From: Argopecten irradians
Lineage: Eukaryota; Mollusca; Bivalvia; Pectinida; Pectinidae
Direction: 5' to 3'
DNA length: 64,000 nt
Assembly (NCBI RefSeq): GCF_041381155.1
Contig: NC_091142.1
Span: 5,459,778 to 5,523,777, forward strand
The position numbers were made by a program, and so were the translations under genes. Shown piece by piece: positions 375 to 49,908 of the stretch. How positions within the stretch are numbered: the stretch's first letter is position 1; every line of letters begins with the position of its first letter. The notes beneath the pieces are model-generated. The model was not told where the DNA came from, ran no database searches, and saw nothing but the letters and a program-made list of their open reading frames with translations.

Positions 375-20639
<20,265 letters not shown>

Positions 20640-27200: not shown

Positions 27201-30200
27201 CACCAGTAAACAACAAACAATAACAATCATTCCTTATATTTACATTGTGACTGACCATTTCATTAAAAATTAAGTGTTCAAATAAAATAAAACTCTATTT
27301 TTTCAATGTTATACGATTGATGGAACAACCGGTCAATTGATGGAATCCCGGAACAGCTGGCTTCAATTTGGCGGTAAATGTTGTCAAATTCAGAGAGTAC
27401 ACAAAATATAGTTCCACAGTAACTTTATCTTTTGTCGTCCAATTTATACAATATTTGTTAAATATTTTATTTACTGATATGTAATTTAAGATTTACATTA
27501 CATTCATACATGCAGTTTATTGAAGATTTGTCATACAGATACAATAGGTCTAATTGGATGCACATTCACAATACTTGCGGAAGTCAGTGTTCCGGTGTGT
27601 GTGTTCTTGCGCGCCAACCACTGTGTTTACACAAGTGTAAATGATTTCACAGTTGGTAAGGTTATATAGCAAAGAGAAAACAGAAATGTAAATATTAGAA
27701 CATAAACCAAACAAACCAAACCAATTGTATTAACGCATTCACCCCTGAAGATACATTTGAACTCTTCCAATTCAAAGACTATGAATTTTCAGGGGTGGAT
27801 TAATTAGACCTACCTGTTCCTCTGGAAGTGACCGAAAGACTGGTCCAGTTCATTATGAATTTGTAGGGGTGGATTAATTAGACCTACCTGTTCTTCTGGA
27901 AGTGACCGAAAGACTGGTCCAGTTTATTATACATTTTCAAGGGTGGATTGATTAGACCTACCTGTTCCTCTGGAAGTGACAGAAAGACTGGCCCAGTTCA
28001 TTATGAATTTTTAGGGGTGGTTTAATTAGACCTAACTGTTCCTCTGGAAGACCTAACTGTTCCTCTGGAAGTGACAGAAAGACTGGTCCAGTTCATTATG
28101 AATTTTTAGGGGTGGATTAATTAGACCTACCTGTTCCTCTGGAAGATTTGAAAGACTGGTCCAGTTCATTATGAATTTTCAGGGGTGGATTGCTTAGACC
28201 TACCTGTTCCTCTGGAAGTGACAGAAAGACTGGTCCAGTTTTATTATACATTTTCAAGGGTGGATTGGTTAGACCTACCTGTTCCTCTGGAAGTGACAGA
28301 AAGACTGGTCCAGTTTCATTATGAATTTTTATGGGTGATTTGATTAGACCTACCTGTTCCTCTGGAAGTGACAGACAACACTCTAGCAGTATCTGTACTA
28401 CAGCGCTCTCCTGGGCTGCGATTAGAGCATTTTTGAGGTCACGTCGCTCCGTTTCAGTTTGACTGGAGTGGTCCAAAATAGGATTTGTGGTCATGTGATT
28501 TTGTAGGTAGACCCGACAACCCTGTACATAGGCATCAAGGACGCGCAGCATGACTTCAAGGATTGGAGGACATCTGTAGCATAGATAACAGTTGTCTCCC
28601 TTGTTAATGTTTTCATTCTTTATTTCAACAAATTTTCTTGACATACTAATGCATGGCACAGTGAAAATGATCGAATAACAAGCAAGCCTATATAAATTAT
28701 TTCCAAAGGTGAGTTATTAAGATCATAAAATTTATATATTTACAAACAAAACTTTAACTTTGCTTGTCTGTCATCAACTCTCCATTTGAAAATATTGATT
28801 TATTGTAATGTCTTTGTTAATTTTTATACTTGAACATTATTAATCAGTAGATGTTTGTTATTATGTTTACTTAAACAGCAGGTAGATACAGTGGACCTGC
28901 AATAATCCAGACACCTATAGTCCGAAAACTCAAAGTCCGGATGCAAAATCAGGGAACCAAATTAATTTGATCAGTGACTACTAAGTAAATGGTATCCAGC
29001 AGTCCGGAAAATACACAATCAACACAGTTTGGGCTGGGGATACAAATATTCATCAGATTATCAAGGTTCCACTGCAATGTTATTCTGAATTTGGATTTTA
29101 CAGAGTTATCTACCCTTGTGGATTGTGGCATCTTTAATTGTGATTGATCGTAAATGAAGTGAGCGTCGCCCGCAGAATGAGGAGGAACGCTATAAGGAAT
29201 ACCTACCTAAAGGGAAGTAACTACGTAATAGGCAAAGACAGACTATCTGTTTATTTATTTGTTTATCCATCAGGATCATATTTGTTTGTTTACCTGAACA
29301 CCTTAGGACTACATCGGAGTACAATAAGAGGATCCACAGTAATATCATTCTCTGTATATGTAAATCTATTGGGGATGAACTTCCCATCTACAGAGGTCAT
29401 GGCATTTACTGTTGCTAAACGTAACCTGTCGGGAAAAAAGACAAATTATTAAGATATGTTCGATTATATTTTCTATGTATTTTTAATCCAAGATGGTGGC
29501 TAAATTTATTTAAAATTGGAATGAAAATAGTGATCTCTAAAATTATCTGCTGTATGGGCAAAATAATAAAGGAAAAAAAATGTGCATGAAACCTAAATAA
29601 ATGCAAACACATTAATATTTAATCATTACATAAAATATGTAATATTAATCATAATAAAAGTTTGAATTATTTTTTATATAATGAAATATTACTGTAAATG
29701 TAATCACTATAGTGTAATCACAGTGAAGTACAACAGAGATTTAAAACAAGTCATCAAAACAATGAATCATACAACAGAAATTCACATTAGTATTTACATG
29801 CGTGGACTGATAGTGTGCAGTTTAAACCAGGCTGTTTTCACCATGTCCTGGACACGCCGCGGAACTCCAGACCCAAGTAACACTGGCAGACTTGATACCA
29901 GGGTGTCAGAGAAAGGCAGTAGATTAGCTATAGGCTTTCTCAATAGGGCTTGGAGCTGTACCACAGCATTTGTGGGGTTAGATTCAACATCCTGGAGAGC
30001 TGAAAATACAATATCATGGGGTTAGACTCAACATCCTGGAGAGCTGAAAATATAATAATGTGGGGTTAGATTCAACCGCTTGAAGAACTGAATATACAAT
30101 ATCATGGGGTTAGATTCAACATCCTGGAGAGCTGAAAATAAAATATCATGGGTTAGACTCAACATCATTGAGAGCTGAAAATACAATATCATGGGGTTAA

Positions 30201-33200
30201 ACTCAACATCCCGGAGAGGAACATATTATCATGTTTTTAACAATTCACCTATATGATCTTTCAAGACATCAGAAAGGATCTTTATCATGCTTGGTTCATT
30301 ATACAATCAAGGTCATAGAGGTCAAATTTCAGGATGCTGTGCCAAGGCATAAGCTCACCTCGCCTTCAGGCTAGTATATGTAATCTGCCCCCATCCCAAG
30401 GTAAGGGTGTAAATACCTTTATTCAGAGATTCCACAGTACAGGAAGTGTGACTCAGGGGAGACCACTCCGTATTTTGTTTGTCCTGTATCATGATTTCCT
30501 GTAACCAGTCTTCTACAGCACACAGATGGGGGTAATGAGTTGCGAGTAATCTGTGGAAATACCAAGGACAAACAAGCTATTAATCTGTTTTACGGTTAGT
30601 GGGGTATGAGGGCCGAGTAGACAACATTTATAGAATCTTTCACCTCCTTTGGGGTGACACAGGAGAGTCTTATCCCAAGTGTTGAGATATCTTGTCTTCC
30701 CCTAAAGTGGGTGAATGAATCTTTTTCTCGTACTCTGCCTGAGCAAGTGCACAGGTCTCTTGTAACTTGTCTTTACCCTAGGGCGATATAGGAAAATCTC
30801 ACCCCGGTAAAATTGCGGATATCCCTGTCAGGGGTAAGAGAAAATAGAATCTTACATGGGTCTGGCAAGTGGACAGGGATATATAAACGTGGGTAAAAGA
30901 TTTTGACTATCTCACAACGCATCAGAACAGACTGAACTACATTTCCTTTTTATATCTCTGAACAAGTATTGGAGCATTGCAATAAAATATTCCAAAGGTG
31001 GATAACGAAAGTGATAGTAACCCTAGAGTATCAAGAATTCAGACATCCTTACTTCCATATTTCTTTGAGGATCAATTTAGCCCACTTTAGTGGGATTTTA
31101 GTCACTAGATATTCAAACATATATCTATGGGATACACGAAGAAATATTTGCTATTAAAATTTTGTTTCCTTTCCAAAATTACCTTAGCAGTGGTGAGAAG
31201 AGCCCCACATATTGATGTTGCTGTATCTGGGCCTGTTGTAACAGATAGTTGATTGGAATCTGTGACAGTAGTGTATCGGGGTAGGACTTAACCACTCGGT
31301 TAGATGACACTGAAAACCAAAACAAATAGAATGTCAGCGAAATGTTAAAGAAACACAGTAGAAGAAGCAGAGCAGGGCTCAATATCTATACATGTATATC
31401 TCACTTATTTAAATTTGCCTGATATCCGGTTATTTTATCCATTTTTACGTGTGTCACTAATGTTTTATAACCGCTAAAGTGGCTGTTTTCGACAAGAAAT
31501 CCATTGTGAAGCATGACATAAATAGTAAAGTGATGTCAGAAAAATGACATAACTTCATGATTTTTATGTCGGTGGAACAAAATAGCTGCCTCTGCTGGAT
31601 TTTGCAGTATAGTTTGGAGCTGAAAATCTTTAAAATGAAAGTTCTTGTAGTTATGTGATATAAATCCATCAGAATAAATGAACATAAAATACAAAATCTC
31701 AAATCATCACTAACGGAAGAAGGTACAAACACCTGCCCGATCATCAAATTGATGATGAAATAAATAAAATGTGATAAAATAAGAGTAGTGGTTACCAATG
31801 ATTTTCATGTTGTTTAGAATAGTGTCCTCATACAGGAGAATATAGTACAACATTAAAAGTTGAGGTGTCAGGCTTCCTCTCCCGTCGCTACCCTCATCTG
31901 TGTCCATCATGTCTTCTTTACCCGTGTTAAATACAGACTCCTGATAGATAGCTAGCACTTCTTCATCGGTCATCGGCTCGTTCAGGTGGTCAGTTTTTGT
32001 ACTCTTGACCACTATGGAGTTAACATATACCTCTACTAAGAGGGGGAGGAGCGGATGTAGGGGGCAGGCACTCACTCGTATCTGTCTATAAATCCAATCC
32101 TAAGGTAGAACACAATATGAAGAATAGATTTTCTTTATTTCAACCACAGCAAAATATATTGATTATGTTTTCTATATAGGAAAGTAAAAAGGCAAACTTT
32201 CCGGAAGGGCCGAAAAGAAATATAGAATATCTTCTCTTCTTATAATTACACAAATCCATCGACTATGGATTGGCAGAGGGTTGCATAGATTGCGCAAGAA
32301 GTTAAAGGTAAAGGTTTTTTTATGCAACATACATGAAAATTTTGGATTGTATTTTTCATTTAACTTGACAGACTGACATGTACATTTAATAATTTCATTT
32401 TAACTAGACCGACTGAAATGTACATTTAATTATTTCATTTCAACTAGACCGACTGACATGTACATTTAATTATTTCAATTCAACTAGACCGACTGACATG
32501 TACATTTAATTATTTCATTCAACTAGACTAACTGACATGTACATTCATTATAAACATCTAAGAATCTTTTCCATCCACAAAGGTTAAAGTATATGCATAC
32601 AGCTTTTTAAAAACTATGGGAAAAGGACAAGTCGGCAAAACACAATTAATATATCAATTAATTTGTTGTTAGAAATTAATAATACCAACCTTAATATTGA
32701 CTTTGTGTTTAGAAAACGCTCTGCTCCGTAACAGCTGGTACACACTGTTGATGGGTAGGTAACCAGTCATGTTGGCGTTCAGGTTCATGGTGACAGGGAC
32801 CTTCACTGCATGGGATGTTATCACCTGCAAAAGAGACAAAAAGGGAGATAACTCGGATCTATTCAGAAAGGGGAGGTAACCCGCACCAATCAAAGGGAGA
32901 TAACTTAGATCTATTCAGATAGGGTAGAGAAGACACGTACACCAATCAAAGGTAGATAACTATGATCCAGCAAATCATGTTTACTCAAATCCATCAAGTT
33001 TTACAGGAACCCAAAATTCTGAATAGACAGGGGAAATCACCTAGATTAATCAAAGGGAGATAACTCTAATCCATTACATTACATTTACTCAAATCCATCA
33101 AGTTTCACAGTGGGTAACCCGAACTTATATATAGTTAGGGGAAATAACCTAGGTCAATCCAACGGAGATAACCCCACATATATCAAAGAATAGATGTACA

Positions 33201-36200
33201 TGTATTCATAGTTACCCAGGTAGATATATAGGGAGTTACTGACGATTCATGACACAAACAGAAATTCACTGTAATTCATATAAATTTAATGAAAAGTTAT
33301 GAAATAGGAAAACTACATCCTGACATACATAATTTACTTTAAATATTTTGACAAAAAATGTATTCAACATTAAAAACTAACCTGTTCAGTGAAGATTTCT
33401 TGAGTAAATATCTGCCTCATTCTGGCCAAGGCATTTGCTTTGACGGCACTCTGAGGGAAAACCATGATCATCAGGAAAATTGTAACATTGTCAATGAATT
33501 TTATAATCATTTCAATGACACAAAATCAGGTTATGTTTTCTTTACCTTTTGAACTTAGGCAGTAAACCCTTGACCATCAATTGGGATAAAATATGGTCAA
33601 TAACAAATAACTCTTAATGGAGAGATGAAAGATCAATGTCAAGACCACTCAACTATAACAGCCTATCAAGGACATTGATAAGAACTTACATTATCTAAGC
33701 ATTTTACATGGAGACACAGTAGAAAAAAATACATTACAAGGTACAATGTATCTTATTGATATAGATAAGACACACCTATTACACTATTAATCTTTCGCTT
33801 CAATTGTTAAATAAATTTTTTTATCTTTGTAATGAAATCTGAAGATCATACACCACAAGATAATCCTCACCTTCATTCCGAGTGTATTACAGACGAGATC
33901 GGCGATGGCGGGTGTGGCGTTGTTGTGGAAGTGTATAGCTATCAGGAAGAGCATCTCTCCAAAGGAACAGTCATGGGTTCCCTCCCTTCAAACAAGAAGA
34001 TGTTCCATTATACTAAAAGCATACTTATTTTAGTGCAAACAAAATTATCTCCCCTCAAACGAAAAAATGTTCTTAAGTAATTATCTTATTTAGCCCATTG
34101 TCGATATTTGATGCCTGTTGATTCCATAGTCAGTAGATCAGACCCCTATTTCTCAAAACAAACTTCAAGTAAAATACATACTAGAGACAGAATTTTTCAC
34201 TTGTACCATTTTTACTCAGGTAAGTTTTTTCAGAAGTATTTTTTTACTATCTTTTTAAACTTTCCAAACACAAAACCTGCTCTGTGTGTGAAATAACTTT
34301 TGAGAAGTTTTAGTTTTGAGATGTTCCACTGTACTTACATTTCAAATTCCTTCTCTGCTCCCATTAACCATCTGATCCAATCGATGGCCTGTTTCTCCTG
34401 GTCATGGCTTCTGAAATGTTGTTACATTCATCTTAAATTAAAATCATTTTACTGTATAAAATTAAAACTAAGTAACATAATGTCTTTAGTAATATGGTAG
34501 TCTGTAATTTTTGAAGGGATTATATCTTCACGATTTTTGCGGTACATTGCTATGATGGCAAAAATTTGACCTACAAAATATTGAGAAGTAGTTGAATCAG
34601 ATATACTCGGTACTCAGAGAGGCAGAACATAATATTTTTTGAGTCACTAGAATTTAATTTTTTCTTTTTTTTTTATTGCCAAATAATTCCTGCCAAAACA
34701 ATCAGCTATACATAAAACTTGATCTCGGTTTTTAAATTTATAGATGACATATACTATGCAAGGAAAGAAAACTTTGGGTGACACACATTACATTAGAAAT
34801 CTTTGTTGTATTATACTCCAAAACCTACCCTAATAAATACGGACATGCTATAAGCATACACAATCCAAGGGAGACAAATCTGGCCCCCGCTGGAGTAAGT
34901 GGCGGTCTAGACGTCACTAGGCGCAGTAGCAGCTTCATTTCTTCTTCAGAAAACCTGTCAAAAACATGTTAGTTTGAAATTCATTCATCTTGAGTGCATT
35001 CTACGGATTCCATCATGGCTTAGTATATACTAGGTAAAAGAATAATTATATGGTGGAAACAGGAGAGGGCAGCACTTCTCCGCTAGAAAATAACAGCTAT
35101 ATCTAACAAGGTTTGGTGGAGTGTTACTAAATCAGAAGCCAGAACTATATTTTCCCTCTTTAATTCAAGAATATAACTTCCGTTCTCTTGTAGCTTTTCT
35201 GCTTCTGGAACCGCTTCTATCTATAAGCTTAAGATCTTCTGAGAAAGCTTCTTCTCTAAGGGAGAGGGCAAATCCAGATGACCTCTTGGCTAGCATAGAT
35301 GTGTAGCACCATAACATTGTCATTACCTGAGTGTGGCCATACCCTTCAGGGCACAGTATAGACGGACAAAGGCGCTGGCCTGGATTACACACGACTCAGA
35401 CATGGCTGAACCGTTGTCTGGGAGGATTGAGATGAGTCGTTCTAGAAGCCACAGTCGGAGGTTGTGTAAGGACGAATTGGATGGTTCACGCTTTCTCTGA
35501 AACATAATATTGAAACATTATTTTTTGCTTTATGATATTACAGTAAAAGATCTCTAAAATTGAGGGAAGATGAAATAGACTTCAACATGCAGAACATTAC
35601 AAGATTGGTAAGTATTTGTAGCTGAATGGACTACACACATATAACATAAGTTTTCCCTCTAGCATTTATTTTCTTTTTCTTATTTTTGCTTTCAACTGCT
35701 ATTAAATAAGGTACTATATAACCAGTTATTTTTTCCGAGTAATGACATTATCGTGATTTTGTGGCACATAGCTTTGTTTGCAAAATTTAATCAGTTACAT
35801 GTCGAGAAAATGTTGAATCATTTATACTATTATAGCCAGATTGCAAAAATCTGTATCTCTAAATTTTTTATCTTTGTTTGCTTAATTAGAAAAAAATTGA
35901 CTTGCGCAAACAACCAGTTATATGGTAGTATTTGATAACAGTTTAGATTTTAAACTTCAACTGGAAAATTAAATTGATAAAACTGAACAAAAATTATTCA
36001 AATAAAAATGTGTAATGCCTCAACATAATAGTGTGTCGATGTCAGCTAAAAATAGAATCAAGTAGCAACTCTCACCTTTTGACCAGCTTTAATGTAGAGC
36101 GAGAACCAGCTCCTGACAGGTATGTCGTTACCAAGCAACAGGCCACTGATGAAAGCTATCATATCATTGGTTCTATCTGTGGTTGCCATGGTATTGGACT

Positions 36201-39200
36201 TCAGAAGATCACTCATTTTCAAGGACAACGACACAGCCAGTCCTGGCATGGTACAGTGTTCAACCTACAAAGGTCAAATGTCAAAGGTCAACCAGTATCT
36301 GATAACCTCAGGTTAACAAAAACAAATTTTGAGAACTGTGATACAAATTATTCAAAATTATTGCCAATTACAGTAAATGTATAATTAATTAATTTAATTT
36401 GTATATTAAAGACTTAACAAAAACTTTCCATGTAGGAATATGCTAATAACATGTAAAGGGGATATTGTTTTTGATGGTTAACTGTGATAAAGTCAGATTA
36501 TGAGCATTTCCTATAAAGAGAATTAGGTATATTTTGAAGTTTTGATAGGAACTTCTAAGGCCTCCAGAGGGGAAAAGCCTACCAGCTGCTAATATACTCA
36601 CACACATGGCACGAATGTTAAATGCTTCTCCTGGGTTCATGGCACAAAGGCTGAGGAGGAGTTCCATACGGCGACGCCCACCAACACTCTCTTCTTCTTG
36701 ACGCTCCCCTCGTCCTACTAAACTTGCACACACTATAACAAATAATATCAATGTTTAAAACAACTTAATATGATAATGTAATCATATATATAATTATAGT
36801 AATTAAACATGTAATTATGTCTGTAACAGAATGCAAGATTTTATCAAAAACATTCAATTTAATAACTGCCTCCTCCAGGAATCGAACTCGGGACCTCTGG
36901 ATTACTAGTCTGACACTCAACCGATCAAGCTAACAAGAAGTTCTTTCTAGCCAAGAGACACATTGTTGTTAGTATAGACCAGGGTTAGATATATACATGG
37001 GACCCCAACAGTCAAGGCTGGGACCCCAACAGTCAAGGCTGTCACTTTAAAAGTGAAAAACATTGTTTTTATACAACTTATCTCACAACTTTCCAAGGGA
37101 GACAACTCCTATGCATTAAACTTCTGAATACTATCATAAAAATCACCATATTATTAGTCCTGATGTTAACATACCTTCTTTGAATGAATCCGGAGCGTTG
37201 CTGATGAGGCGACAAAGAAGCCAGCTTCCATTAGGGACGTGAAGAAGTGCCTCCGAGACCTCTACCACTGGCAGCAACGACGGCAGCTCTAAATAAACAT
37301 ACAATGTGTACAAATCCATCAGATAACTCCACTGTAAATTAGAAGTGTTGAAAATCAAATAATATAATATAATCTCTTTTCTTACCAGCTTGAGCAATAC
37401 AAAGTACATCTGACAACTCCTCCAAATAGGCATGGCTTTCAAACAGCTCTGAATGTTTCTGGTAAAATTCAGCTCGGGTTTCCTTTATCTGGAAAATTAA
37501 AAGTAGAAAATAGATACAAATTTAATATGAAGAGAAAGAACAAATATAACAGTGTAATTTAATTTGTCTTGAAAAAGTATCATTTGAATTTGAAACAAAG
37601 TTGAAAACACAAGACAAATAATGATGATAATGGATCCAGACACAGAAAGAGAATTTTTTCTAAAATTTCCTAATATTTTAATATGATTAGCATTACTATT
37701 GTAAATGACTACATGTGGTTAATTTCTAGACTATAAAATATTTTAACTAACAAGGTTATGTAATGTTGACCCTTGAAAAATCAACACTAAAAATAATCAT
37801 ATATATTGTAACATCATTTTGTGATCAATAAAATGTTAATTTTAATTACTTTTTGTGACATGTTTTTCCTTTTTTTGTCTTCATATTTTGCCCAATATTT
37901 ACAAGTTTTAAATTTGTATAGTACAAATATACATTTGTAAGGATCTGGTGATATTACTGTACTTCTTTAACTCATATCTATATACATGTATATATACGTA
38001 CCTGAGACATCACAAAGAGTAGTTCACTTAGTAAAAGTCTGATCCTCCGCGCGGGGTCACTTCTCTCGAACTCTAAGGCCGGTCCATTCTGTAACTGTGA
38101 AATCAACACACTCTCTGTCTGGGTTCCTCCAAACTTTGATCTAAAACAAAATGTAAATTCACAATTATCTTTCTTCAAACTTTGATCTAAAACAAAATCT
38201 AAATTTTCAATTATCTTTCTCCAAACTTTGATCTAAAACAAAATCTAAATTCTCAATTATCTTTCTCCGAACTTTGATCTAAAACAAAATCTAAATTCTC
38301 AATTATCTTTCTCCCGTTTTATATGATTATTATCTAATAAATGTACCTGACTAGTGCCAACTGTATAACTACTTCCAAATCCAACTTTTCTTTTTCTTTT
38401 TTAATGTAATTAACTTGTTACTTTCTACTAGGTTTTCAGAATATTTATGTAGAGGAGTTATTATTTATTATATTGTATTTTATTAATGTCAGATAGCTTT
38501 AAGTTAAATTGTCACAATATTCATCAGGGTTTAATTAATTTTAAATTTTAACTTTAAAGGGACAATTCACTCAGGCTAATTCTTTTACATAACCAAGAAG
38601 CAAAATATGGCATAAATGTATTGTTCTACATTTCTTATGAAACATATAACATAAAATATTGACAAATTCCACGTCATTGTTTAGTATTTTAATTGGTACC
38701 GTTGTAATTACAAATCGTTGATCAATACGATTAAACAGGTACAATATGTACGCTGTACCCATACCCGAGACAAAGTCATGCACGTTAAACAAATGAACTA
38801 CATAACCACTGAGGAGGTGATCAAATGATTTTTGGGCAAGACAATTCACATAACAAGGTAAATACACTACTGTCAGAGCAATTGGAGCAGTTCTAGACAA
38901 AAGTAACATTACTCTACGAGCAAGGGACAGGGTTCGAATTCGGTAAACAAGATGTTCGACCACAATGTGTAATGGCGGACAGCGAGCTAGTTTGAACATT
39001 TCACACGCATTTCACCACCATAGACTTTTCTGGCATATCACAGTAAAACCGACTGATCTAATTTCCATTAGAAATGTGTTTTTTTCCGATATATGTACAA
39101 ATTCTAATGTTCTCTTAGACTGAATTGTCCCTTTAAAAACTCAATTATTTAATTTTTTTTTTTTCATATTCTGGCAGTGATTTTAATTTTTTCCATCATG

Positions 39201-42200
39201 TAATCATAATAATCTTGAAATTGAATTTGTTGACTATAGATTTTCCTTTTAATTAATTACATGTATATAGTTTTGTAATTTTTCAGTCAAATAAAAGATA
39301 TCAAAATTACTTTGTAATTATGGACCAGAAATAAAAGTTAAACTCATTAATTTGTTAAAGCTGACAATGCAAGTTAAAATTATTAACATGATTTTTTTTT
39401 AAATAAGTATACTCGTTTTTCCAAGAATCGTTTATGAGACATTCCCCGGTTGAGGACAGCCATTTTTGTTTTACATTCCGACGACTCACCGACCCCTATA
39501 TAAAGCGCGTGAATCGACACACGTGCGCTCATTCATGTACCTATACACCTAGCAGTCCACAGGTTATATCACCTACAAATAGGTAAACAAAACCCTCACC
39601 TGTAAAAATATATGGGACTTTTTTTAGCAAGAAAACATGTCAACTCCTCTAAGTTGTCATTTAGATGTTTCTCAAAATAAAATTCCAACGCAAGTGAATA
39701 GAAATCCAAAAATAATCCGTCCACATATCTCCACGTATATCATCGTACCCGACGCACTCAACTGACCATATACACGTGACTATGTACCTGACCCGAACGA
39801 GCGACAACTATCAAGGACACACACGTGTCGTTGTACATGTACGTGTAAAACTTAGTGTATATTGAAGTGTTTTATTAGTTCGTATTGGACATATGTTGGG
39901 ATATAGCTGACAACACATTCATCTATTACTTCAATGAAATATTGTCAGGTGAGTGCAGTGTTTATTTTCAATTTGACATTGTTATTTGCAATATCGGGGC
40001 ATGTGTATCTGAGACAAGATATGCTTAGAATGATACACGTGTGTCAAGTGTTCCGTGCTTTATATAGGGGGTTGGCCAGTGAAGGTTACTAAGCAGAGCA
40101 AAAGAAAAATGGCTGCCACTTCCTTAGATACCACACTGTCATAACTAGGGGATGTCTCAGAAACAATTTTTGAAAAAAAAAAAAATATTTCGTTAATATT
40201 TTTTTTTAATTTCAACTGCATGTTTTTCACTTGCATTGTCAGCTTTAAACTTGGTGACTGATATATACATGCATATGCTTGCATTTAAAGTAAAACACAT
40301 CTTTTGAGTTCTAAATCCTGTTTGCCCTGTACGTTTCTTTCTGTTTTTTATTTTTATAAACTAGGAAAGGTACCATAATTTGCTTTAAACTTAAAATTAA
40401 ACATTAGATAATGCTGTAGTAAAAATTATTTAGGGATTATCAAAACCTCTCAACAAATTATTAAATCTATACTGGTTAAAGCCTAAACCAACATGTACAT
40501 CACCTCAGAAACAAAGAGATTGGAAACTCCTTCTTTATTTATGTTGACAGTTTAACAGAGGGATCTCTGGTTTATAGGCATTTTCCCTTGGCTAGCTACT
40601 TTTAAGTGTATTCTATTAAACATGATATATCATGGTTTGATGTTTTCCTAATTGATGTTATTTGATATGATTTTTGAAAGCATGAAAATAAGCAATTTTA
40701 CCTATTTTTTTTTCGAAAAATCAGACATTCAAAACCGGAAGTGCATTTCGTTTTAATAATACATAAGTTAAAATATTATTTTTTCTTTCCAAATGATTTG
40801 AAAATTTGTGAACTTTTATAACATATCAAAGTTATTCTGCTGTATTTAGCTATATAAGAATTTATCTAAAACCCCCGGAGCACATGTACATACAGAGGTA
40901 CATCTGCTGAGCGTAAAAATAGTGGAGTTGCCAATCTCTCTAATATATGTTTTTGATTACGTGTAGAAATCTAATAAGAAAACAAAGTGACTATCGCAGA
41001 ATGTGTAGGCACTAAAAGTGTGTTCATTACAGAAATGGAAAACAAATCATGATTGCTAGGGCGAATACAAACATCGGTGCGTTTTGACCCATGCAGTCAC
41101 GATTGGCAGTTTTTACGTTTTCGGACTTATCAAATGAAAGGTTCTTTAACTTTACCACAATTCAAGGATCTAACAGTTTTTTCCACATCTTCTATTGAAA
41201 CTTTGGAACTCACTAGATCACTCTATCAGAGATCTTATTTCTATTTCCTCTTTTAAATTAAATAAATTTTAACAACTTTTCCATCTATAATCTCCAACAT
41301 ATTTATGATTTGTCAACCTAGTATTTTAATTTATTCCTTTTATGCCAATTGCGCATATTATGCCAGTGACTTAAATTATGACAATTCTCCGAATCATCTT
41401 GACAGATGATGGTTCATGCTTTGTGGTGACTCCAACTGAAAAAAAATTTCTGAACATTATTTTTTTTTATTGTACTCATTTTTCTGATTTTGACATCACA
41501 TATTCTCTATTTCTAATCTTTTGGGTTTGTTAATATTGAAATTCTGTTGTATGGGTCTTATTGATTTTTCTAATGATATTAATGAAAATGTACTACTTCA
41601 TTACAAAGTAATTATATAAAAAAAACTAGAGATTTCAATTGTACAAAAATAGATTTTATAGAAAATATTAACAATATATGCCATGTAATGATATATTGAA
41701 GGACCCATTATGAGAGGGTGTGTATGTGTGTGTGGATGTGATATGTATAAATTAATTAATTTGTTTTCTATAAATAATATTGCCTATTTATTACTTATTC
41801 ATTTAAAATATATTTACTTATTTGTCTATCTGTTGTAAATATTTATTTTCTTTTCTATGGCCCGCTTGGGTATGCTCCTAATATTCTTTTTTCTTTTCAT
41901 TTCTACTGATACAACACTATTTATATCTATTTATTAGTTAAATAAACCGGATTTCTGGAGAGGACCTATATAGGCTTTGCCTGTTGTCCAATCCATTTGG
42001 CATTACATTAATATATTATCTTTCTCTATGATTCATGTATATCTTGTATTTGTTAATAAAATATTTTGAAATGAAATCACTTTGAAGAATTCCTGTATAT
42101 AACAATACCTTAATTGTTGTTCTTTAATTACATCCTGTTCCAGAGCATTAAAATCGATGGAAAGGAGGGCTACGATGCTGTTTACAACTTCTATTCCATT

Positions 42201-42395
42201 CAGGATTTTTAGCACTTCTTTTCGAGATTTTGTCCAAGAAGAACTTTCATCGAGGGGTTTGCAAAGTGCCATGCGAACAAGGCACGGTAAAACCGGTCGA
42301 AGCTCAAGTTCATTGCAGCGACTTAAAACATTTATGTTCACATCCTGCATCGCCTGAAATACTTCAGGCTTTACAGGTGTCCGAGACGACTGCAT
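24237..42395 (-). CDS. INTS2: Integrator complex subunit 2 (22 coding exons, about 1,141 aa)
   Basis: Coding exons in transcription order: 42109-42395, 38002-38140, 37386-37488, 37175-37288, 36602-36732, 36076-36264, 35327-35496, 34829-34954, 34339-34410, 33871-33985, 33382-33450, 32690-32824, 31796-32099, 31183-31309, 30417-30550, 29798-29999, 29294-29425, 28354-28573, 26508-26618, 25897-26004, 25405-25510, 24237-24568. All have GT/AG borders and matching phases and sum to 3,426 nt. Recognisable blocks in order are LPCLVRMALCKP, IVALLSIDFNALEQD, GPALEFERSDPARR, CAMNPGEAFNIRAMCV, MPGLAVSLSLK, HAVKVPVTMNLNANMTGYLP, LLMLYYILLYED, GSGVPRRV, DPLIVLRC, IHQMFISDPNLAKLVHFQ, GIPSMHICLDFVPEL and CYAFPPLCEDATTLLGQVG. 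INTS2 is a helical scaffold subunit of the nuclear Integrator complex, which processes snRNA 3' ends and terminates paused RNA polymerase II. Human INTS2 has about 1,204 residues. Three exon borders (exons 2, 16, 18) are tandemly duplicated in the introns. The gene is head-to-head with MED31. Confidence 0.95.
27078..27235. mobile_element. Near-perfect hairpin MITE, about 158 bp
   Basis: Two arms of about 60 bp (starting AAGGAATGATCGTTTATTGT, and ending CAATAACAATCATTCCTT) are almost exact inverted copies. The loop is about 40 bp. It lies in an INTS2 intron. Confidence 0.85.
27801..28373 (-). repeat. About 74-bp tandem array of the INTS2 exon-18 5' splice site
   Basis: On the - strand each unit reads TTCCAGAGGAACAG|GTAGGT, then an intron-derived stretch ending GGACCAGTCTTTCTGTCAC. 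Donor copies fall at 28351, 28276, 28201, 28128, 28033, 27959, 27885 and 27811, plus a 21-bp partial copy near 28054. The copy at 28033 has TTAGGT in place of GTAGGT. The copy nearest the exon is taken as the normal donor. Confidence 0.92.
28889..29074. mobile_element. Short pogo/Tigger-like MITE
   Basis: Left end CAGTGGACCTGCAATAATCC, right end (inverted) CAGTGGAACCTTGATAATCT, about 186 bp, preceded by TA. CAGTGGAAC..ATAATC ends fit pogo-group elements. Confidence 0.6.
29095..29235. mobile_element. MITE, family 'TTACAGAGTTATCT', copy 3 (diverged)
   Basis: Left TTTACAGAGTTATCTACCCT, right AAGGGAAGTAACTACGTAAT followed by GGCAAAGACA, as in the other two copies. Confidence 0.6.
29973..30218 (-). 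repeat. About 44-bp tandem array of the INTS2 exon-16 3' splice site
   Basis: On the - strand the unit is TGATATTGTATTTTCAG| followed by CTCTCCAGGATGTTGAATCT. About 27 bp of exon 16 and 17 bp of intron are repeated head to tail. Acceptor-type ends fall at 29999 (normal), 30043, 30087, 30131 and 30173, with a last decayed unit after that. Confidence 0.9.
32370..32548. repeat. About 41-bp minisatellite in an INTS2 intron
   Basis: Four to five copies of a unit containing GACTGACATGTACATTTAAT and TATTTCATTTCAACTAGACC. Confidence 0.85.
32835..33180. repeat. Degenerate 'AATCAAAGGGAGATAACT' repeat
   Basis: Five to six diverged copies of a unit with (A)GGGAGATAAC, adjoining the acceptor of INTS2 exon 12. 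Unit length is irregular (50-130 bp). Confidence 0.6.
36866..36940 (-). repeat. tRNA-derived SINE head or tRNA pseudogene
   Basis: On the - strand there is an A-box-like TAGCTTGATCGGTTGAG and a B-box-like GAGTTCGATTCCTGG, with AGACTAGTAATC where an anticodon loop would be. The anticodon stem and T stem have mismatches and no acceptor stem forms, so it is not a working tRNA gene. Confidence 0.55.
38129..38314 (-). repeat. 46-bp tandem array of the INTS2 exon-2 3' splice site
   Basis: Four acceptors, each GATTTTGTTTTAG|ATCAAAGTT on the - strand, lie exactly 46 bp apart, with exon edges at 38140, 38186, 38232 and 38278. The unit takes about 12 bp of exon and 34 bp of intron. Confidence 0.93.
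38553..39137. mobile_element. MITE with TTTAAAGGGACAATTCA ends
   Basis: TTTAAAGGGACAATTCACTC at the left is mirrored by GACTGAATTGTCCCTTTAAA at the right, 585 bp overall. A 142-codon open frame inside (38571-38999, - strand) starts and ends near the repeat ends and resembles no transposase. Confidence 0.75.
39355..40248. mobile_element. Foldback-type element with long imperfect inverted repeats
   Basis: The left end TTAAAGCTGACAATGCAAGT recurs inverted at the right (ACTTGCATTGTCAGCTTTAA). The similarity extends inwards about 120-160 bp through GAGACAT(T/C)CCC and AGCCATTTTT(G/C)TTTT. No coding frame of note. Confidence 0.7.
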
Positions 42396-42566
42396 GGTGC
42401 ACCAATTAGCGATGTAAACAAGGAAAATGTTAGAAAATCACATTGTCAAAAAAAGTCAGATGGGAGCCGCCATTGTATAAATATTGTCTAAGTCGCACAG
42501 GTGTTTGAATCGAAGCTTCAAAAATGAAGAGTCATGCGTCTCATTGATCATGACTATTTGATAACA
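42396..42566. promoter_or_regulatory. Likely bidirectional promoter between INTS2 and MED31
   Basis: Only 171 bp separate the two divergent start codons. ACAATGGCGGCT occurs on the - strand at 42465-42476 and on the + strand at 42564-42575, where it contains the MED31 ATG. It resembles the YY1-type motif AANATGGCGGC. The - strand copy opens a five-codon upstream frame (MAAPI) before the INTS2 start. No TATA box is evident. Confidence 0.7.
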
Positions 42567-43918
42567 ATGGCGGCTAGTAGACAAAGTTCTCTTGCTGGAC
42601 CAGGTAGGTTGTATTTAAAATGGACGGATAGCTTATATTGGATGCTAATTAGAAACCCAAAACAATATGTATTTATTCTAAGTTTATTTGTCAATGTTTA
42701 GATGCCAGAACAGAACATTTAAATGAGAATTGACTGATTTTACATGGATATTTTTTTCAGATGTTGATGAGCAGAAAACCAGATTTCAAGCTGAATTGGA
42801 GTTTGTGCAATGTTTGGCAAATCCCAATTACCTGAACTGTGAGTGTTTTTCTTCATATCTTAAAACCAACAGATGCATGCCACTTTGCATTTTGATTGAA
42901 ATACAGACTCAATCAACTACCTTAAACTTGAGCAGAAATACAACCAAAGATGTATGTCATGATGTAGTAATAGTATAATATATATAATAATCACTTTAAT
43001 CATAGAGAGATTGGATAGTATAATATATATATACATACATGCATGCATAAATGTTCTCTTTTTCTAAATACATTTCAGATACAGACATTTCAGTTATATT
43101 GATAATTAAATAATGAGTACTCATTATTATATGCATTAATTGTAATTATCCTTATAGAAAATAAAATAATAGTGTTTTCTTTCATTTTCAGTTTTAGCAC
43201 AGAGAGGATTTTTTAAGCAGGAAGAATTTATCAACTATCTGAAATATCTACAGTACTGGAAAGAACCAAAATATGCCAAATTCCTGAAGTAATCTTCATT
43301 TGAATAATTAATCTCCTCTTGAATAATGTTTAAATCTGATGTATTCCTTTGAATTGAACTTTTGAATTAATATAATGACACATATATATAACATTTGTAG
43401 TATTTTCAATTCTTCACCAATGTTCCTATAAGATGTTTGTAATATGATCATGAGTACCAGTATAACAATCAAAGTACATACTCTATGTTTTAATTATAAT
43501 GAAGTAATTCATTTATTTTGTTGTCCCCAGAGGTTCATTATAATTGTTTTACTGTACATGTCATTTGTTTTTTGTGTTTGACCTTGTATGTGTATGCTAA
43601 TAACAAATTAATTCCTTTTGTCCCTATAGGTTTGGTACTATATACATATCATTTGATTCATTTATAATCTGTTTTGGATATTGTAGATACCCTCAGTGCC
43701 TGCATTTCCTTGAGTTGCTGCAGTATGAATACTTCAGGAAGGAGCTTGTAAATTCTCAATGTGCTAAATTTATTGATGATCAACAATTGTTACACTGGCA
43801 GCATTACCAGAGGAAACGTATGAGTCTGTTACAGGCAGAGCTAGAACAACAGCAAGCACAGCAACAGGCAGCACAGTTGACCCCAACCACGGCACAGCAC
43901 AAAGACAAGTCTAGTTAG
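42567..43918 (+). CDS. MED31: Mediator complex subunit 31 (4 exons, 147 aa)
   Basis: Exons 42567-42603, 42761-42838, 43192-43288 and 43687-43918 join in phase. The protein is highly conserved: FQAELEFVQCLANPNYLNFL, AQRGFF, YLKYLQYWKEPKYAKFLKYP, QCLHFLELLQYEYFRKEL and FIDDQQLLHWQHYQRKRM. The C-terminus is a glutamine-rich tail (residues about 117-135) that ends TAQHKDKSS. MED31 is a small subunit of the Mediator middle module, where it packs on the N-terminus of MED7 and helps polymerase II initiation. Its last 13 codons and stop form the first unit of a 4-kb tandem array. There is no AATAAA that I noticed before 48390, so the 3'UTR may cross the array. Confidence 0.97.
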
Positions 43919-46900
43919 GATATACAATGTAACACTGTCAACACCAACCACGACACAGCACAAAGACAAGTCTAGCTAGGATATACAATGTAACACAGTC
44001 AACCCCAACCACGGCACAGCACAAAGACAAGTCTAGCTAGGATATACAATGTAACACAGTCAACCCAACCAGGCACACCAGTCATAGGCACAGCACAGCA
44101 CAAAGACAAGTCTAGTTAGGATATACAATGTAACACAGTCAACACCAACCACGGCACAGCACAAAGACAAGTCTAGTTAGGATATACAATGTAACACAGT
44201 CGACACCAACCACGGCACAGCACAAAGACAAGTCTAGCTAGGATATACAATGTAACACAGTCAACACCAACCACAGCACAAAGACAAGTCAGCTAGGTTT
44301 TTACAATGTAACACATTCAAACCAGACCACAGCACAAAGACAAGTCTAGCTAGGTTTTACAATGTAACACATTCAAACCAGACCACAGCACAAAGACAAG
44401 TCTAGTTAGTTTTACAATGTAACACAGTCGATTCCGACCACAGCACAAAGACAAGTCTAGCTAGGTTTTACAATGTAACACAGTCTAACCCAACCACAGC
44501 ACACAGTCTAGGCTAGGAATGTAACACAGTCGACCAACCCACGGCTACAGGCACAAAGACAAGTCTAGCTAGGATATACAATGTAACACGTCAACACCAA
44601 CCACGACAACAGCACAAAGACAAGTCTAGCTTTAGGATATACAATGTAACACACAGTCAAACACCAACCACAGCACAGCACAAAGACAAGTCTAGCTAGC
44701 TAGGATTTACAATGTAAACACAGTCAACACCCAACCACGGGCACAGCACAAAGACAAGTCTAGCTAGGTATACAATGTAACACTGTCAACACAACACAAC
44801 CAGCACAACCAAGTCTGCTAGGATATATCAGCACAGTGCACAAAGACAAGCACTAGCAAAGGATATACAATGTAAACACAGTCAACACCAACCACGGCAC
44901 AAGCACAAAGACAAGTCTAGCTAGGATATACAATGTAACACACAGTCAACACCAACCACCAGCACAACACAAAGAACAAGTCTAGCTAGGATATACAATG
45001 TAAACAACAGTCAACACCACCACGAGCACAGCACAAACAAAGACAAGTCTAAGCTAGGATTTACAATGTAACACAGTCAACACCAAGTCTAGCCAATGGA
45101 CAAAACAGCACACAAAGACAAGTCTAGCTAGGATATACAATGTATACACAGTCAACGAACCAACCACAGCACAGCACAAAGACAAGTTCTTAGCTAGGAT
45201 ATACAATGTAACACAGTCAACACCAACCACGGCACAGCACAAAGACAGTATAGCTAGCTAGGATATACAATGTAACACATGTACAGGTCGACACAACCAC
45301 GGCACAAGCACAAAGACAAGTCTAGCTAGGATATATACAATGTAAAACATGTCAACACCAACCACAGCACAGCACAAAGACAAGTCTCTAGCTAGGATTT
45401 ACAATGTAACACAGTAAACACCAACCACGGTCAGCACAAAGACACGGCTTACAGCACAAATGGACTGTCAAACCAGTTCTAGCTAGCACAATTGACAACT
45501 ACAATGGATATTCAAAACACAGTCGATTACCCAACCACGGCACAGCACAAAGACAAGTCTAGCTACGGATATACAATGTAACACAGTCAACCCAACTACG
45601 GCAGCAGCACACAAAGACCAAGTCTAGCTAGGATATACAATGTAACACAGTCAACACCAACCACGGCACAGCACAAAGACAAGTCTCTAGATCAGTGGAC
45701 ATATACAATGTAACACAGTCAACACGGGCACAGCACAAAGACAGTCTAGGCATTGTAAACACAGTCGACCCCCACTACAGCACAAAAGGACAAGTCTAGC
45801 TAGGATATACAATGTAACACAGTCAACACCAACAATGGCACAGCACAAAGATCAAGTCTAGCTAGGGCATACAATGTAACACAGTCAACACAAACCACGG
45901 GCATAGCACAAAGACAAGTCTAGCTAAGGATATACAATGTAACACAGTCAACACCCACCACAGCAAAAAGACATGTCAGATATACAAATGTAAAAGACAA
46001 GTCTAGCTAGTAGGATATACAATGTAACACAGTCAACACCAACCACAGCACCAAAGACACAGCACAAAGACACAGTCAACACCAAACTAGCTAGGATATA
46101 CAATGTTAACACAGTCAACACCAACCACAGCACAGCACAAAGACAAGTCTAGCTAGGGTTTACAATGTAATACACAGTCAACACCAACCCACGGCACAGC
46201 ACAAAGACAAGTCTAGCTAGGATATTACAATGTAAACACTTGTCAACACCAACCACGGCACAGCAGCACAAGACAAGTCTAGCTAGGTTAGACATTCTAC
46301 AATGTAACACAAGACAACACCAACCACGTCACACACAGCCCAAAGACAAGTCTAGCTAGGATATACAATGTAAACACAGTCAACACCCACGGCACCAAGT
46401 CAGTTGTTCGGATATTACAACTTGTAACACACGTCCAAACACAGCACAGCAATAGACAAGTCTAGTTAGGATTTACAATGTAACTACAGTCTAAACCAAC
46501 ACGGCACTGCAGCACAAAGACAAGTCTAGCTAGGATATACAATGTAACACAGTCAAACACCAACCAACCACAGCACAAAGACAAGTCTAGCTAGGATATA
46601 CAATGTAACACTGTCAACACCAACCCGGCACAGCAACAAAGACAAGTCTAGCTAGGATATACAATGTAACTCACAGTTCAACACCAAACCACCGGCAAGC
46701 CAGCACAAAGACAGTGTCATAGCTAACAATGGATATACACCAATACAGCACAAAGACCAAGTCAGTAGGTAACACCAAATTGTCATAAACACACCCACGG
46801 CACAGCACAAAGCACAAGTCTAGCTAGGATATACAATGTAACACAGTCAACACCAACCATGGCACAGCACAAAGACATGTACTAGCTAGGATATACAATG

Positions 46901-47880
46901 TAACACAGTCAACACCAACCAACGGCACAGCACAAAGACAAGTCTAGCTAGGATATACAATGTACACACAGTCAACACCAACCACAGCACAAAGACAAGT
47001 CTAGCTAGGATATACAATGTAACACAGTCAACACCAACCACGGCACAGCACAAAGACAAGTCTAGCTAGGATATACAATGTAACACTGTCAACACCAACC
47101 ACAGCACAGCACAAAGACAAGTCTAGCTAGGATATACAATGTAACACAGTCAACACCAACCACGGCACAGCACAAAGACAAGTCTAGCTAGGATATACAA
47201 TGTAACACAGTCAACACCAACCAACCACGGCACAGCACAAAGACAAGTCTAGCTAGGATATACAATGTAACACAGTCAACCCACCAACCACGGCACACAG
47301 CACAAAGACAAGTCTAGCTAGGATATACAATGTAACACAGTCAACACCAACCACGGCACAGCACAAAGACAAGTCTAGCTAGGATATACAATGTAACACA
47401 GTCAACACCAACCACAGCACAGCACAAAGACAAGTCTAGCTAGGATATACAATGTAACACAGTCAACACCAACCACGGCACAGCACAAAGACAAGTCTAG
47501 CTAGGATATACAATGTAACACAGTCAACACCAACCACGGCACAGCACAAAGACAAGTCTAGCTAGGATATACAATGTAACACAGTCAACACCAACCACGG
47601 CACAGCACAAAGACAAGTCTAGCTAGGATATACAATGTAACACAGTCGACACCAACCAAGCACAGCACAAAGACAAGTCTAGTTAGGGTTTACAATGTAA
47701 CACATTCAAACCACCACACAAAGACAAGTCTAGTTAGGTTTACAATGTAACACATTCGATTCCAACCAAGCACAAAGACAAGTCTAGCTAGGTTATACAA
47801 TGTAACACAGTCGATTCCGACCACAGCACAAAGACAAGTCTAGCTAGGTTTTACAATGTAACACAGTCGACACAGACCAC
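43878..47880 (+). repeat. 61-bp tandem array seeded from the MED31 stop-codon region
   Basis: The unit contains CCAACCACGGCACAGCACAA, AGACAAGTCTAGCTAGG and ATATACAATGTAACACAG, about 65 copies. Unit 1 encodes the MED31 end LTPTTAQHKDKSS and its stop. Units at about 46800-47640 are nearly identical. Those at 44480-46800 carry many one- and two-base insertions and losses. The edge units have TTTTACAATG in place of the ATATACAATG segment. Confidence 0.97.
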
Positions 47881-48439
47881 ATTACAGTGCAAGGACTAGC
47901 TAGAGATTACCATGCAACATAGAAAAGAAAACTGTGAATTTTAGACTAACTGATCATTTAATCAACTATGATTCAAAGATTCCAAATGTACATTTGTACA
48001 CAATTATATGATTTGTTATCAATCTGTTGTCGATATGAAAAGTGCTGAGAAATCTTTTGATATTAGTATTACTACTTACAGTCTTGCATTTGAAATGTAG
48101 TTATGTTTCTTAAGAATGCTTTCAAATCTTGAAAAATATTGTACATGACTTAAAGCGATATGGTGGTATGAATGGCGAATAGGAATGTATGACATGAATG
48201 AATTTGAAATTAAATGAATGGACAATTGAAGAAATAATTGAATGTATGAATGAAGAGGGAAAAAGAGAAACAAGTGAACGAAGAAGGAATGAATGAATTT
48301 AAAAGTAGGCGAATGGAGAAATGGATGATTATCGAATGGTATAAACATGTAAGAAGTGAGGCAGTCTAATTAATGGTTGAATGTTTTAAAATAAAATTGA
48401 TAAAAATTAACATTTGTATTCTTATATGATTGTAATAGA
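47881..48439. other. Spacer between the two tandem arrays
   Basis: AT-rich, with an AATGAATGAA-type simple repeat near 48180-48330. An AATAAA at 48390-48395 is the first candidate MED31 polyadenylation signal after the array. Confidence 0.5.
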
Positions 48440-49908
48440 TACCCTGAGAATATTGACAGCAGAGAACTAGGTACCCTAAAATATTGACAGTGGAGTAACT
48501 AGGCACCTTAACATATTGACAGCGGAGTACTAGGTACCCTAAAATATTGACAGTGGAGTACTAGGTACTAGGTACCCTAAATATTGACAGTGGAGTACTA
48601 GGTACCCTAAAATATTGACAGTGGAGTACTAGGTTCTTAACATATTGACAGTGGGAGTACTAGGTACCCTAAATATTGACAGTGGAGTACTAGGTACCCT
48701 AGAATATTGACAGTGGAGTATGAGGTACCCTAGACTATTGACAGTAGAGTACTAAGGTACCCTAAATATGACAGTGGAGTACTAGTACCAAAATATTGAC
48801 AGTGGAGTACTAGGTACCCTAAATATTGACAGTGGAGTACTAGGTACCCTCAAATATTGATAGTGGAGTATGAGGTAGTCGCCCTAGACTATTGACAGTG
48901 AGTATATACCCTAATATGACAGTGGAGTACTAGGTACCCTAGACTATTGACAGTGGAGTACTAAGTACCCTAACATATTGACATTGAAGTGCTATGTACA
49001 TTAAATATTCACAATGGGGCACTAGGTACACTAAATATTGAGAGTGGAGTGTGAGGTACCCTAGACTATTGACAGTGGAGTACAAAATACCATAAAATAT
49101 TGACAGTGGAGTACTAGGTACCCTAAAATATTGACAGTGGAGTACCAGGTACCCTAAAAATATTGACAGTGGAGTACTAGGTACCCTAAAATATTGACAG
49201 TGGAGTACTAGGTACCCTAAAATATTGAACAGTGGAGTACTAGGTACCCTAAAATATTGACAGTGGAGTACTAGGTACCCTAAAATATTGACAGTGGAGT
49301 ACTAGGTACCCTCAAATATTGACAGTGGAGTACTAGGTACCCTCAAATATTGACAGTGGAGTACTAGGTACCCTCAAATATTGACAGTGGAGTACTAGGT
49401 ACCCTTAATATTGACAGTGGAGTACTAGGTACCCTCAAATATTGACAGTGGAGTACTAGGTACCCTAAAATATTGACAGTGGAGTACTAGGTACCCTAAA
49501 ATATTGACAGTGGAGTACTAGGTACCCTAAAATATTGACAGTGGAGTACTAGGTACCCTAAAATATTGACAGTGGAGTACTAGGTACCCTAAAATATTGA
49601 CAGTGGAGTACTAGGTACCCTAAAATATTGACAGTGGAGTACTAGGTTTATAAAATATTGACAGTGGAGTACAAAGGTACACTATAATATTGACAGTGGA
49701 GTACTAGGTACCCTAAAATATGACAGTGGAGTACTAGTAATATTGAGTGGAACTAAAATATCGACAGTGGAGTACTAGGTATATCCATGGAGTACTAGTA
49801 TAATGTGGAGTACTAGGTACCCTCAAATATTGACAGTGGATTACTAGGCACCCTTTAATATTGACGGTGTAGTACTAGGTTAATTAAAATATTGACAGTG
49901 GAGTACTG
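48440..49908. repeat. 31-bp minisatellite
   Basis: About 47 copies of a unit containing TATTGACAGTGGAGTACTAG and GTACCCTAAAA. The centre (49090-49640) is very regular. The first 550 bp and last 250 bp have many small indels. It is unrelated in sequence to the 61-bp array. Confidence 0.96.

Follow-up and report, generated by a model that had tools for sequence, protein, structure and literature searches.

Tandem arrays multiply intact splice sites at exon borders of INTS2 and of other genes in the bay scallop genome

The DNA analysed here is a window of 64,000 nucleotides of the bay scallop Argopecten irradians. The contig that carries it is 44.1 Mb long, and the genome assembly, 845.8 Mb in total, consists of 1508 contigs, among which C1–C16 measure 34–76 Mb each and C17 measures 1.07 Mb. 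The window contains two adjoining genes, INTS2 on the minus strand and MED31 on the plus strand. A 704-aa INTS2 query, in which most of the translated exons were joined and some middle exons were omitted, matched PDB chain 7cun_B, Integrator complex subunit 2 (E 1.5e-209), which we take to be the human protein, and the first 415 aa of this join matched the Pfam INTS2 model. The 20-exon gene model runs from 42395 down to 25897, stays in frame without a stop over 991 aa, and has GT and AG at all 19 introns; the positions of two further 3′ exons, at about 25.5 and 24.5 kb, are approximate. The exons of MED31 were read by eye, and their translation matched Mediator subunit 31 (7emf_4, E 1.6e-59) and Pfam Med31. 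In the left part of the window, frames matched the BTB domain of SANBR. An exon-like stretch occurs there twice, at 1356–1598 and 2429–2671, 1073 bp apart and with nearly identical translations, and a 158–160-bp tandem repeat lies near each of the two. Intron 1 of INTS2 carries a dispersed element at 38540–39140, the left end of which has at least 39 other genomic places (among the best 40 of 178 candidates scored) and the two ends of which resemble inverted repeats by eye.

Tandem arrays in the window were called with Tandem Repeats Finder and then compared with the exon model. In INTS2, three of them span splice borders, namely the exon 2 acceptor, the exon 16 acceptor and the exon 18 donor. 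An earlier note had read these from the letters of the window, and the exon numbers and unit sizes given there agree with the homology-supported gene model and with the arrays:

38127..38314, minus strand: array at the INTS2 exon 2 acceptor, 46-bp unit, 4.1 copies; the unit takes in the first 14 bp of the exon
38002..38140, minus strand: INTS2 exon 2; the functional acceptor is at 38140, and three spares, each with AG, are at 38186, 38232 and 38278
29973..30218, minus strand: array at the INTS2 exon 16 acceptor, 44-bp unit, 5.6 copies; the first 27 bp of the exon lie inside
29798..29999, minus strand: INTS2 exon 16; the functional acceptor is at 29999, and four spares, each with AG, are at 30043, 30087, 30131 and 30174
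27780..28375, minus strand: array at the INTS2 exon 18 donor, 74–75-bp unit, 9 donor copies; the last 22 bp of the exon lie inside
28354..28573, minus strand: INTS2 exon 18; the functional donor immediately follows 28354
28204..28353, minus strand: the two spare units nearest to INTS2 exon 18 on its 3′ side; each is 75 bp long, keeps the frame and has no stop

Each of these sets of border copies includes one functional border, and this is the copy adjoining the exon body because the exon must stay whole. The AG or GT is retained in 16 of the 18 border copies (three functional and 15 spare), that is, in 4/4 acceptor copies of exon 2, in 5/5 of exon 16 and in 7/9 donor copies of exon 18, and most of the spare borders score close to the functional ones. 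The consequences of using a spare differ between the copies. In the 20-exon model, splicing at any of the seven spare acceptors, three of exon 2 and four of exon 16, would run into a premature stop. The spare exon 18 donors after 28279 or 28204, if used, would add 75 or 150 nt, that is, 25 or 50 aa, free of stops; the other four GT-bearing spare donors of this exon lead to stops. Splicing would be expected to use mainly the border beside the exon body.

INTS2 carries seven arrays with units of at least 15 bp, three of which sit at the borders described above. The other four, which served for comparison, are found in introns:

32354..32545, minus strand: array wholly in INTS2 intron 12, 40-bp unit, 4.8 copies
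32839..33172, minus strand: array in INTS2 intron 11, ending 14 bp from the exon 12 acceptor
36778..36818, minus strand: array in INTS2 intron 4, 21-bp unit, 2 copies
36998..37041, minus strand: array in INTS2 intron 4, 21-bp unit, 2.1 copies

The neighbouring gene carries a far longer array at its 3′ side:

43872..47881, plus strand: MED31 array, 61-bp unit, roughly 65 copies, extending downstream from the end of the reading frame

Its start lies within the reading frame, of which it takes in the final 47 bp with the stop codon (43916–43918), and neither a splice site nor a border of the exons of MED31 read by eye lies inside it. The view that four arrays in the two genes each contain an exon edge thus applies to the three splice borders of INTS2, while the MED31 array covers a stop codon. 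The regularity of this array varies along its length: its middle (44372–46871) shows 7–19 insertions and deletions per 100 bp as against 0–3 in the nearly perfect stretch at 46872–47621, and the outer parts show 5–7 (43872–44371) and 9 (47622–47871). The indel-rich middle makes the copy number and the inner sequence of the array doubtful, and it may reflect either unpolished assembly or old divergent units. Another array, with a 31-bp unit in about 47 copies, follows at 48432–49907; the searched piece of it matched this window only.

To trace the origin of the units, the whole genome was searched with pieces of eight window arrays joined as a single probe, and matches were taken up to E 0.001. 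Only the best candidates were scored and very common words were skipped, so the counts are lower bounds. The pieces had at least 107 genomic matches, at least 33 of which lay outside the window, all of them to the piece of the INTS2 exon 18 array, with 84–97% identity over 34–53 bp and chiefly in the intronic part of the unit:

28144..28200, minus strand: section of one exon 18 unit, largely intronic, with at least 33 places elsewhere in the genome; dispersed repeat fragment

The pieces of the exon 2, exon 16 and MED31 arrays and of four other window arrays had no place outside the window among the matches listed, and these arrays look local in origin. The exon 18 unit, judged by its matches, is local exon sequence joined to a dispersed repeat fragment, and the array has amplified this fragment and the exon edge together. 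When the intronic unit of exon 18 was sought in the gene-family loci sampled for comparison (see below), no copy was found outside the window. Overhangs of a few bp in the near-perfect arrays were considered as microhomology and set aside as too weak.

A comparison sample was assembled from the same genome in order to see how often arrays capture exon borders in other genes. It comprises 67 genic segments (229,576 bp) with 188 exons of four gene families, which were found by Pfam search and were thus picked by their match and not by their repeats. The matches used were 43/82 of myosin, 73/80 of dynein (DHC_N2), 31/58 of SNF2 and 44/130 of kinesin, 191 altogether, 188 of which lay far enough inside the segments; 47 adaptin, 31 Dynein_heavy, 82 ABC and 56 AAA_9 matches were left out of the sample. 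Exon borders were placed from the ends of the HMM matches and a splice-site score trained on INTS2, and those scoring at least 4 were treated as reliable (313 of 376; the 63 others had no score or one under 4).

The sample holds 82 merged arrays with units of at least 15 bp, which cover 9.8% of its non-coding sequence. A single dinucleotide shuffle of the 229,576 bp gave three Tandem Repeats Finder rows with such units; arrays are far above chance abundance. With at least 6 bp required on each side, six of the 313 borders are captured, in unrelated genes and on other chromosomes than that of the window. Four of these are strong cases with 8–18 copies: a dynein donor with 18 copies of 47 bp, 15 of which retain GT; an SNF2 donor with 8 copies of 56 bp, all 8 with GT; another dynein donor with 8 copies of 52 bp, 7 with GT; and a kinesin acceptor with 12 copies of 31 bp, 10 with AG. 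The remaining two are weak, with 2 and 3 copies and 5 mismatches in the extra copies. Elsewhere in the genome, C6:22712431–22713084 and C5:32621957–32622610 have identical match statistics to a dynein domain, each in one open frame that covers 221 of the 222 positions of the domain, and represent either a recent duplicate or an assembly duplicate.

The number of captured borders was compared with chance under a null in which one unit per array is placed at random in the collapsed non-coding sequence. A null based on coverage, by which 9.8% of the non-coding sequence lies in arrays and 8/313 borders (2.6%) lie within an array span, was rejected as a test, since a tolerated array can hold the border only in its end unit, because the remaining exon must follow unrepeated; the unit-length null was used for this reason. 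Strict capture (at least 6 bp on each side) gave 6 borders against 4.10 expected (P 0.23); with 1 bp on each side there were 7 against 5.54 (P 0.32), and with 10 bp 6 against 3.00 (P 0.084). A looser count of arrays that cross a border or end within 5 bp of it gave 12 against 5.69 (P 0.014), although unmatched exons in the flanks make the expectation for the loose and multi-copy counts somewhat too low. At a lower cut-off of the border score, 2 (353 borders), strict capture comprised 8 borders, with 4.63 expected (P 0.098), and the loose count 14, with 6.41 expected (P 0.006). Among the 30 arrays with at least four copies, 5 captured a border against 1.54 expected (P 0.020) and 7 crossed or approached one against 2.11 (P 0.006); these loose and multi-copy classes were picked after the data had been seen, the tests overlap and the counts are small. 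Six array edges fall at −4 to +1 bp of a border, five at donors and one at an acceptor, and the five donor-side edges start in or beside the first intron bases. At one SNF2 donor (C6:45941460), another copy of the exon edge is found about 116 bp into the intron.

The comparison of arrays and borders that the earlier note had called for at the scale of the genome was carried out on the sample of 313 borders, and its outcome depends on how capture is defined: the strict count stays at chance, while the looser and multi-copy counts show a two- to threefold excess. The idea of a process that starts at exon borders would gain some support from the latter counts and gains none from the former, and a mild preference of arrays for borders is possible. 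For INTS2 itself, 3 of 42 borders are captured as against 6 of 313 in the sample (one-sided Fisher p 0.078); the three captures compare with 0.8 in 42 expected from the sample rate (Poisson P 0.048) and 0.69 expected from the seven arrays of the gene (P 0.033). The INTS2 figure does not stand clearly above the background, the evidence for an excess is not strong, and the cluster had been singled out by eye. Since the same capture occurs in other genes and the excess in INTS2 is marginal, the 20-kb stretch is not clearly special, and the proposal that repeated capture within it is non-random was not borne out.

None of the 82 arrays lay mostly within the coding matches, against 13.5 expected from uniform placement. 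This contrast concerns matched domains, which are conserved ones, and overstates the difference somewhat, since the search could have missed a domain that an array had interrupted. The window offers an apparent exception, a 41-bp repeat at 4297–4380 within a probable exon (4294–4450) that we take, by eye, to belong to SANBR. The imperfect tandem copy of 41 bp sits there close behind the acceptor, at a point where the reading frame seems to be interrupted; the gene may be degenerate, or the break may come from a haplotype or from an error of assembly. The suggestion that selection keeps only those arrays that leave one intact border is supported by the lack of mostly coding arrays and by border arrays occurring at or above the chance rate: arrays in exons are mostly removed and arrays that leave an intact border are kept.

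Considering these results, we concluded that ordinary local minisatellites, filtered by selection for an intact exon, probably explain most of the border arrays. Short segments would duplicate in tandem locally, in a genome crowded with such arrays. A duplicated segment that spans a splice site would yield a complete exon with one intact border and push the spare copies into the intron, and because such a duplication leaves the exon whole, it would be tolerated and able to grow, while a duplication within an exon would usually be purged by selection. The functional copy would accordingly be the furthest downstream at an acceptor and the furthest upstream at a donor. This reading starts from direct observations, namely arrays of mostly local sequence, intact spare borders, the same layout in unrelated genes and a sample free of mostly coding arrays; the chemistry of the duplication may have been slippage, unequal exchange or break repair. 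Against chance and selection as the whole account count the excess in the loose and multi-copy classes, the three INTS2 captures where 0.69 were expected, and the 41-bp repeat in the probable SANBR exon. Arrays may instead arise or grow preferentially at exon borders, on top of the selection filter, for example through more breakage or re-replication caused by pausing, R-loops or steps in base composition. The two- to threefold excess, the six array edges within −4 to +1 bp of a border and the position of three of the seven INTS2 arrays point in this direction; however, strict capture over all arrays does not depart from chance (6 borders, with 4.10 expected, P 0.23), the classes with an excess were chosen post hoc, and the borders come from HMM ends and a splice-site score in four gene families, so that we regard such a preference as a distinctly less likely addition.

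Two other readings have little probability. The arrays could be kept because the spare borders function in regulated alternative splice forms, in line with the scores of most spares, which resemble those of functional borders, and with the first two spares of exon 18, which extend the frame by 25 or 50 aa without a stop. Yet every one of the seven spare acceptors and the four other GT-bearing donors of exon 18 lead to premature stops, and a recent origin of the copies suffices to account for their intact sites, which makes a function of this kind improbable. Slightly more improbable still is an origin in the assembly, in which repeats would have been collapsed or expanded, or long reads left unpolished. 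The uneven MED31 array, with its indel-rich middle beside a nearly perfect stretch, would fit such an origin, but the ends of this array are uneven as well, as truly divergent units would be; moreover, border arrays with different units occur in several unlinked genes, and the INTS2 arrays fit within one long read. Local minisatellites that pass the filter of an intact exon therefore remain the preferred explanation.

Ordinary intronic and 3′ UTR minisatellites have the same unit length, copy number and local origin as the arrays of the window, which consist of head-to-tail units of 46, 44, 74–75 and 61 bp in 4 to roughly 65 copies; the border arrays differ from them in reaching into the exon at one end. 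Zhuo and others reportedly described in 2007 introns that arose from tandem arrays in the human genome, the ends of which match because they lie within such arrays; that account deals with the origin of introns, whereas in INTS2 the borders of existing introns are multiplied. The earlier note knew of no named process of this kind, yet related ones have been described. For human genes that lie in segmental duplications, PMC2812944 reports alternative splicing via novel introns that is generated by tandem repeats at exon–intron boundaries; 162 exon alignments there had boundary repeats and 27 intron modifications were left after manual inspection, and where introns had changed within coding sequence, a table lists units of 9–30 and 62–126 bp. 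Boundary-overlapping tandem units are common to those human repeats and to INTS2, in which they are found at three borders. According to PMC2812944, the human repeats differ between recent paralogues and are linked to novel-intron transcripts, whereas the scallop arrays lie in conserved genes and reach up to 18 border copies. According to PMC3443670, tandem genomic duplication that copies AGGT is recognised as a way in which introns are gained. The mutation is of the same kind in INTS2, where a short stretch of gene has been duplicated in tandem together with splice-site sequence, and AGGT is present at the exon 18 donor; unlike in intron gain, the duplicated segment lies across a border that was already there and enlarges the intron beside it. 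Intron gain involves an exonic duplicate with the two copies becoming the new intron ends, while each INTS2 unit combines exon and intron sequence and sits at the edge of an existing intron, so that the gain of an intron is not demonstrated. Among the titles and abstract openings listed by a literature search with few terms, most subscription journals lying outside its coverage, there was no bivalve account of border-spanning arrays. The INTS2 arrays probably belong with the known boundary repeats, and such arrays are not rare in this genome.

In bay scallop assemblies, tandem repeats account for 15.10 and 15.53% of the genome, and one subspecies has 26,777 genes with 7.11 exons each, according to the excerpts of PMC7090048. 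Multiplied borders amount to about 2% of those sampled (6/313; 95% interval 0.7–4.1%), and if this rate, extrapolated from four gene families, holds throughout a genome with these gene and exon numbers, roughly 6,000 borders (2,300–13,500) would be multiplied. The interest of the arrays lies in this frequency of multiplied intact splice sites and in the two- to threefold excess at borders in the looser counts. Such ladders would offer ready-made experiments on the choice that the spliceosome makes between identical sites, and annotation of repeat-rich bivalve genes could misplace exon ends at them. It is conceivable, though rather unlikely, that exon borders are favoured for the birth or growth of minisatellites, that thousands of genes would carry evenly spaced ladders of near-identical competing splice sites from which splicing reliably takes the exon-adjacent one, and that in-frame ladders such as that of INTS2 exon 18 would give rise to length variants. 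A border bias, if real, would suggest that some mutational process is linked to the structure of genes.
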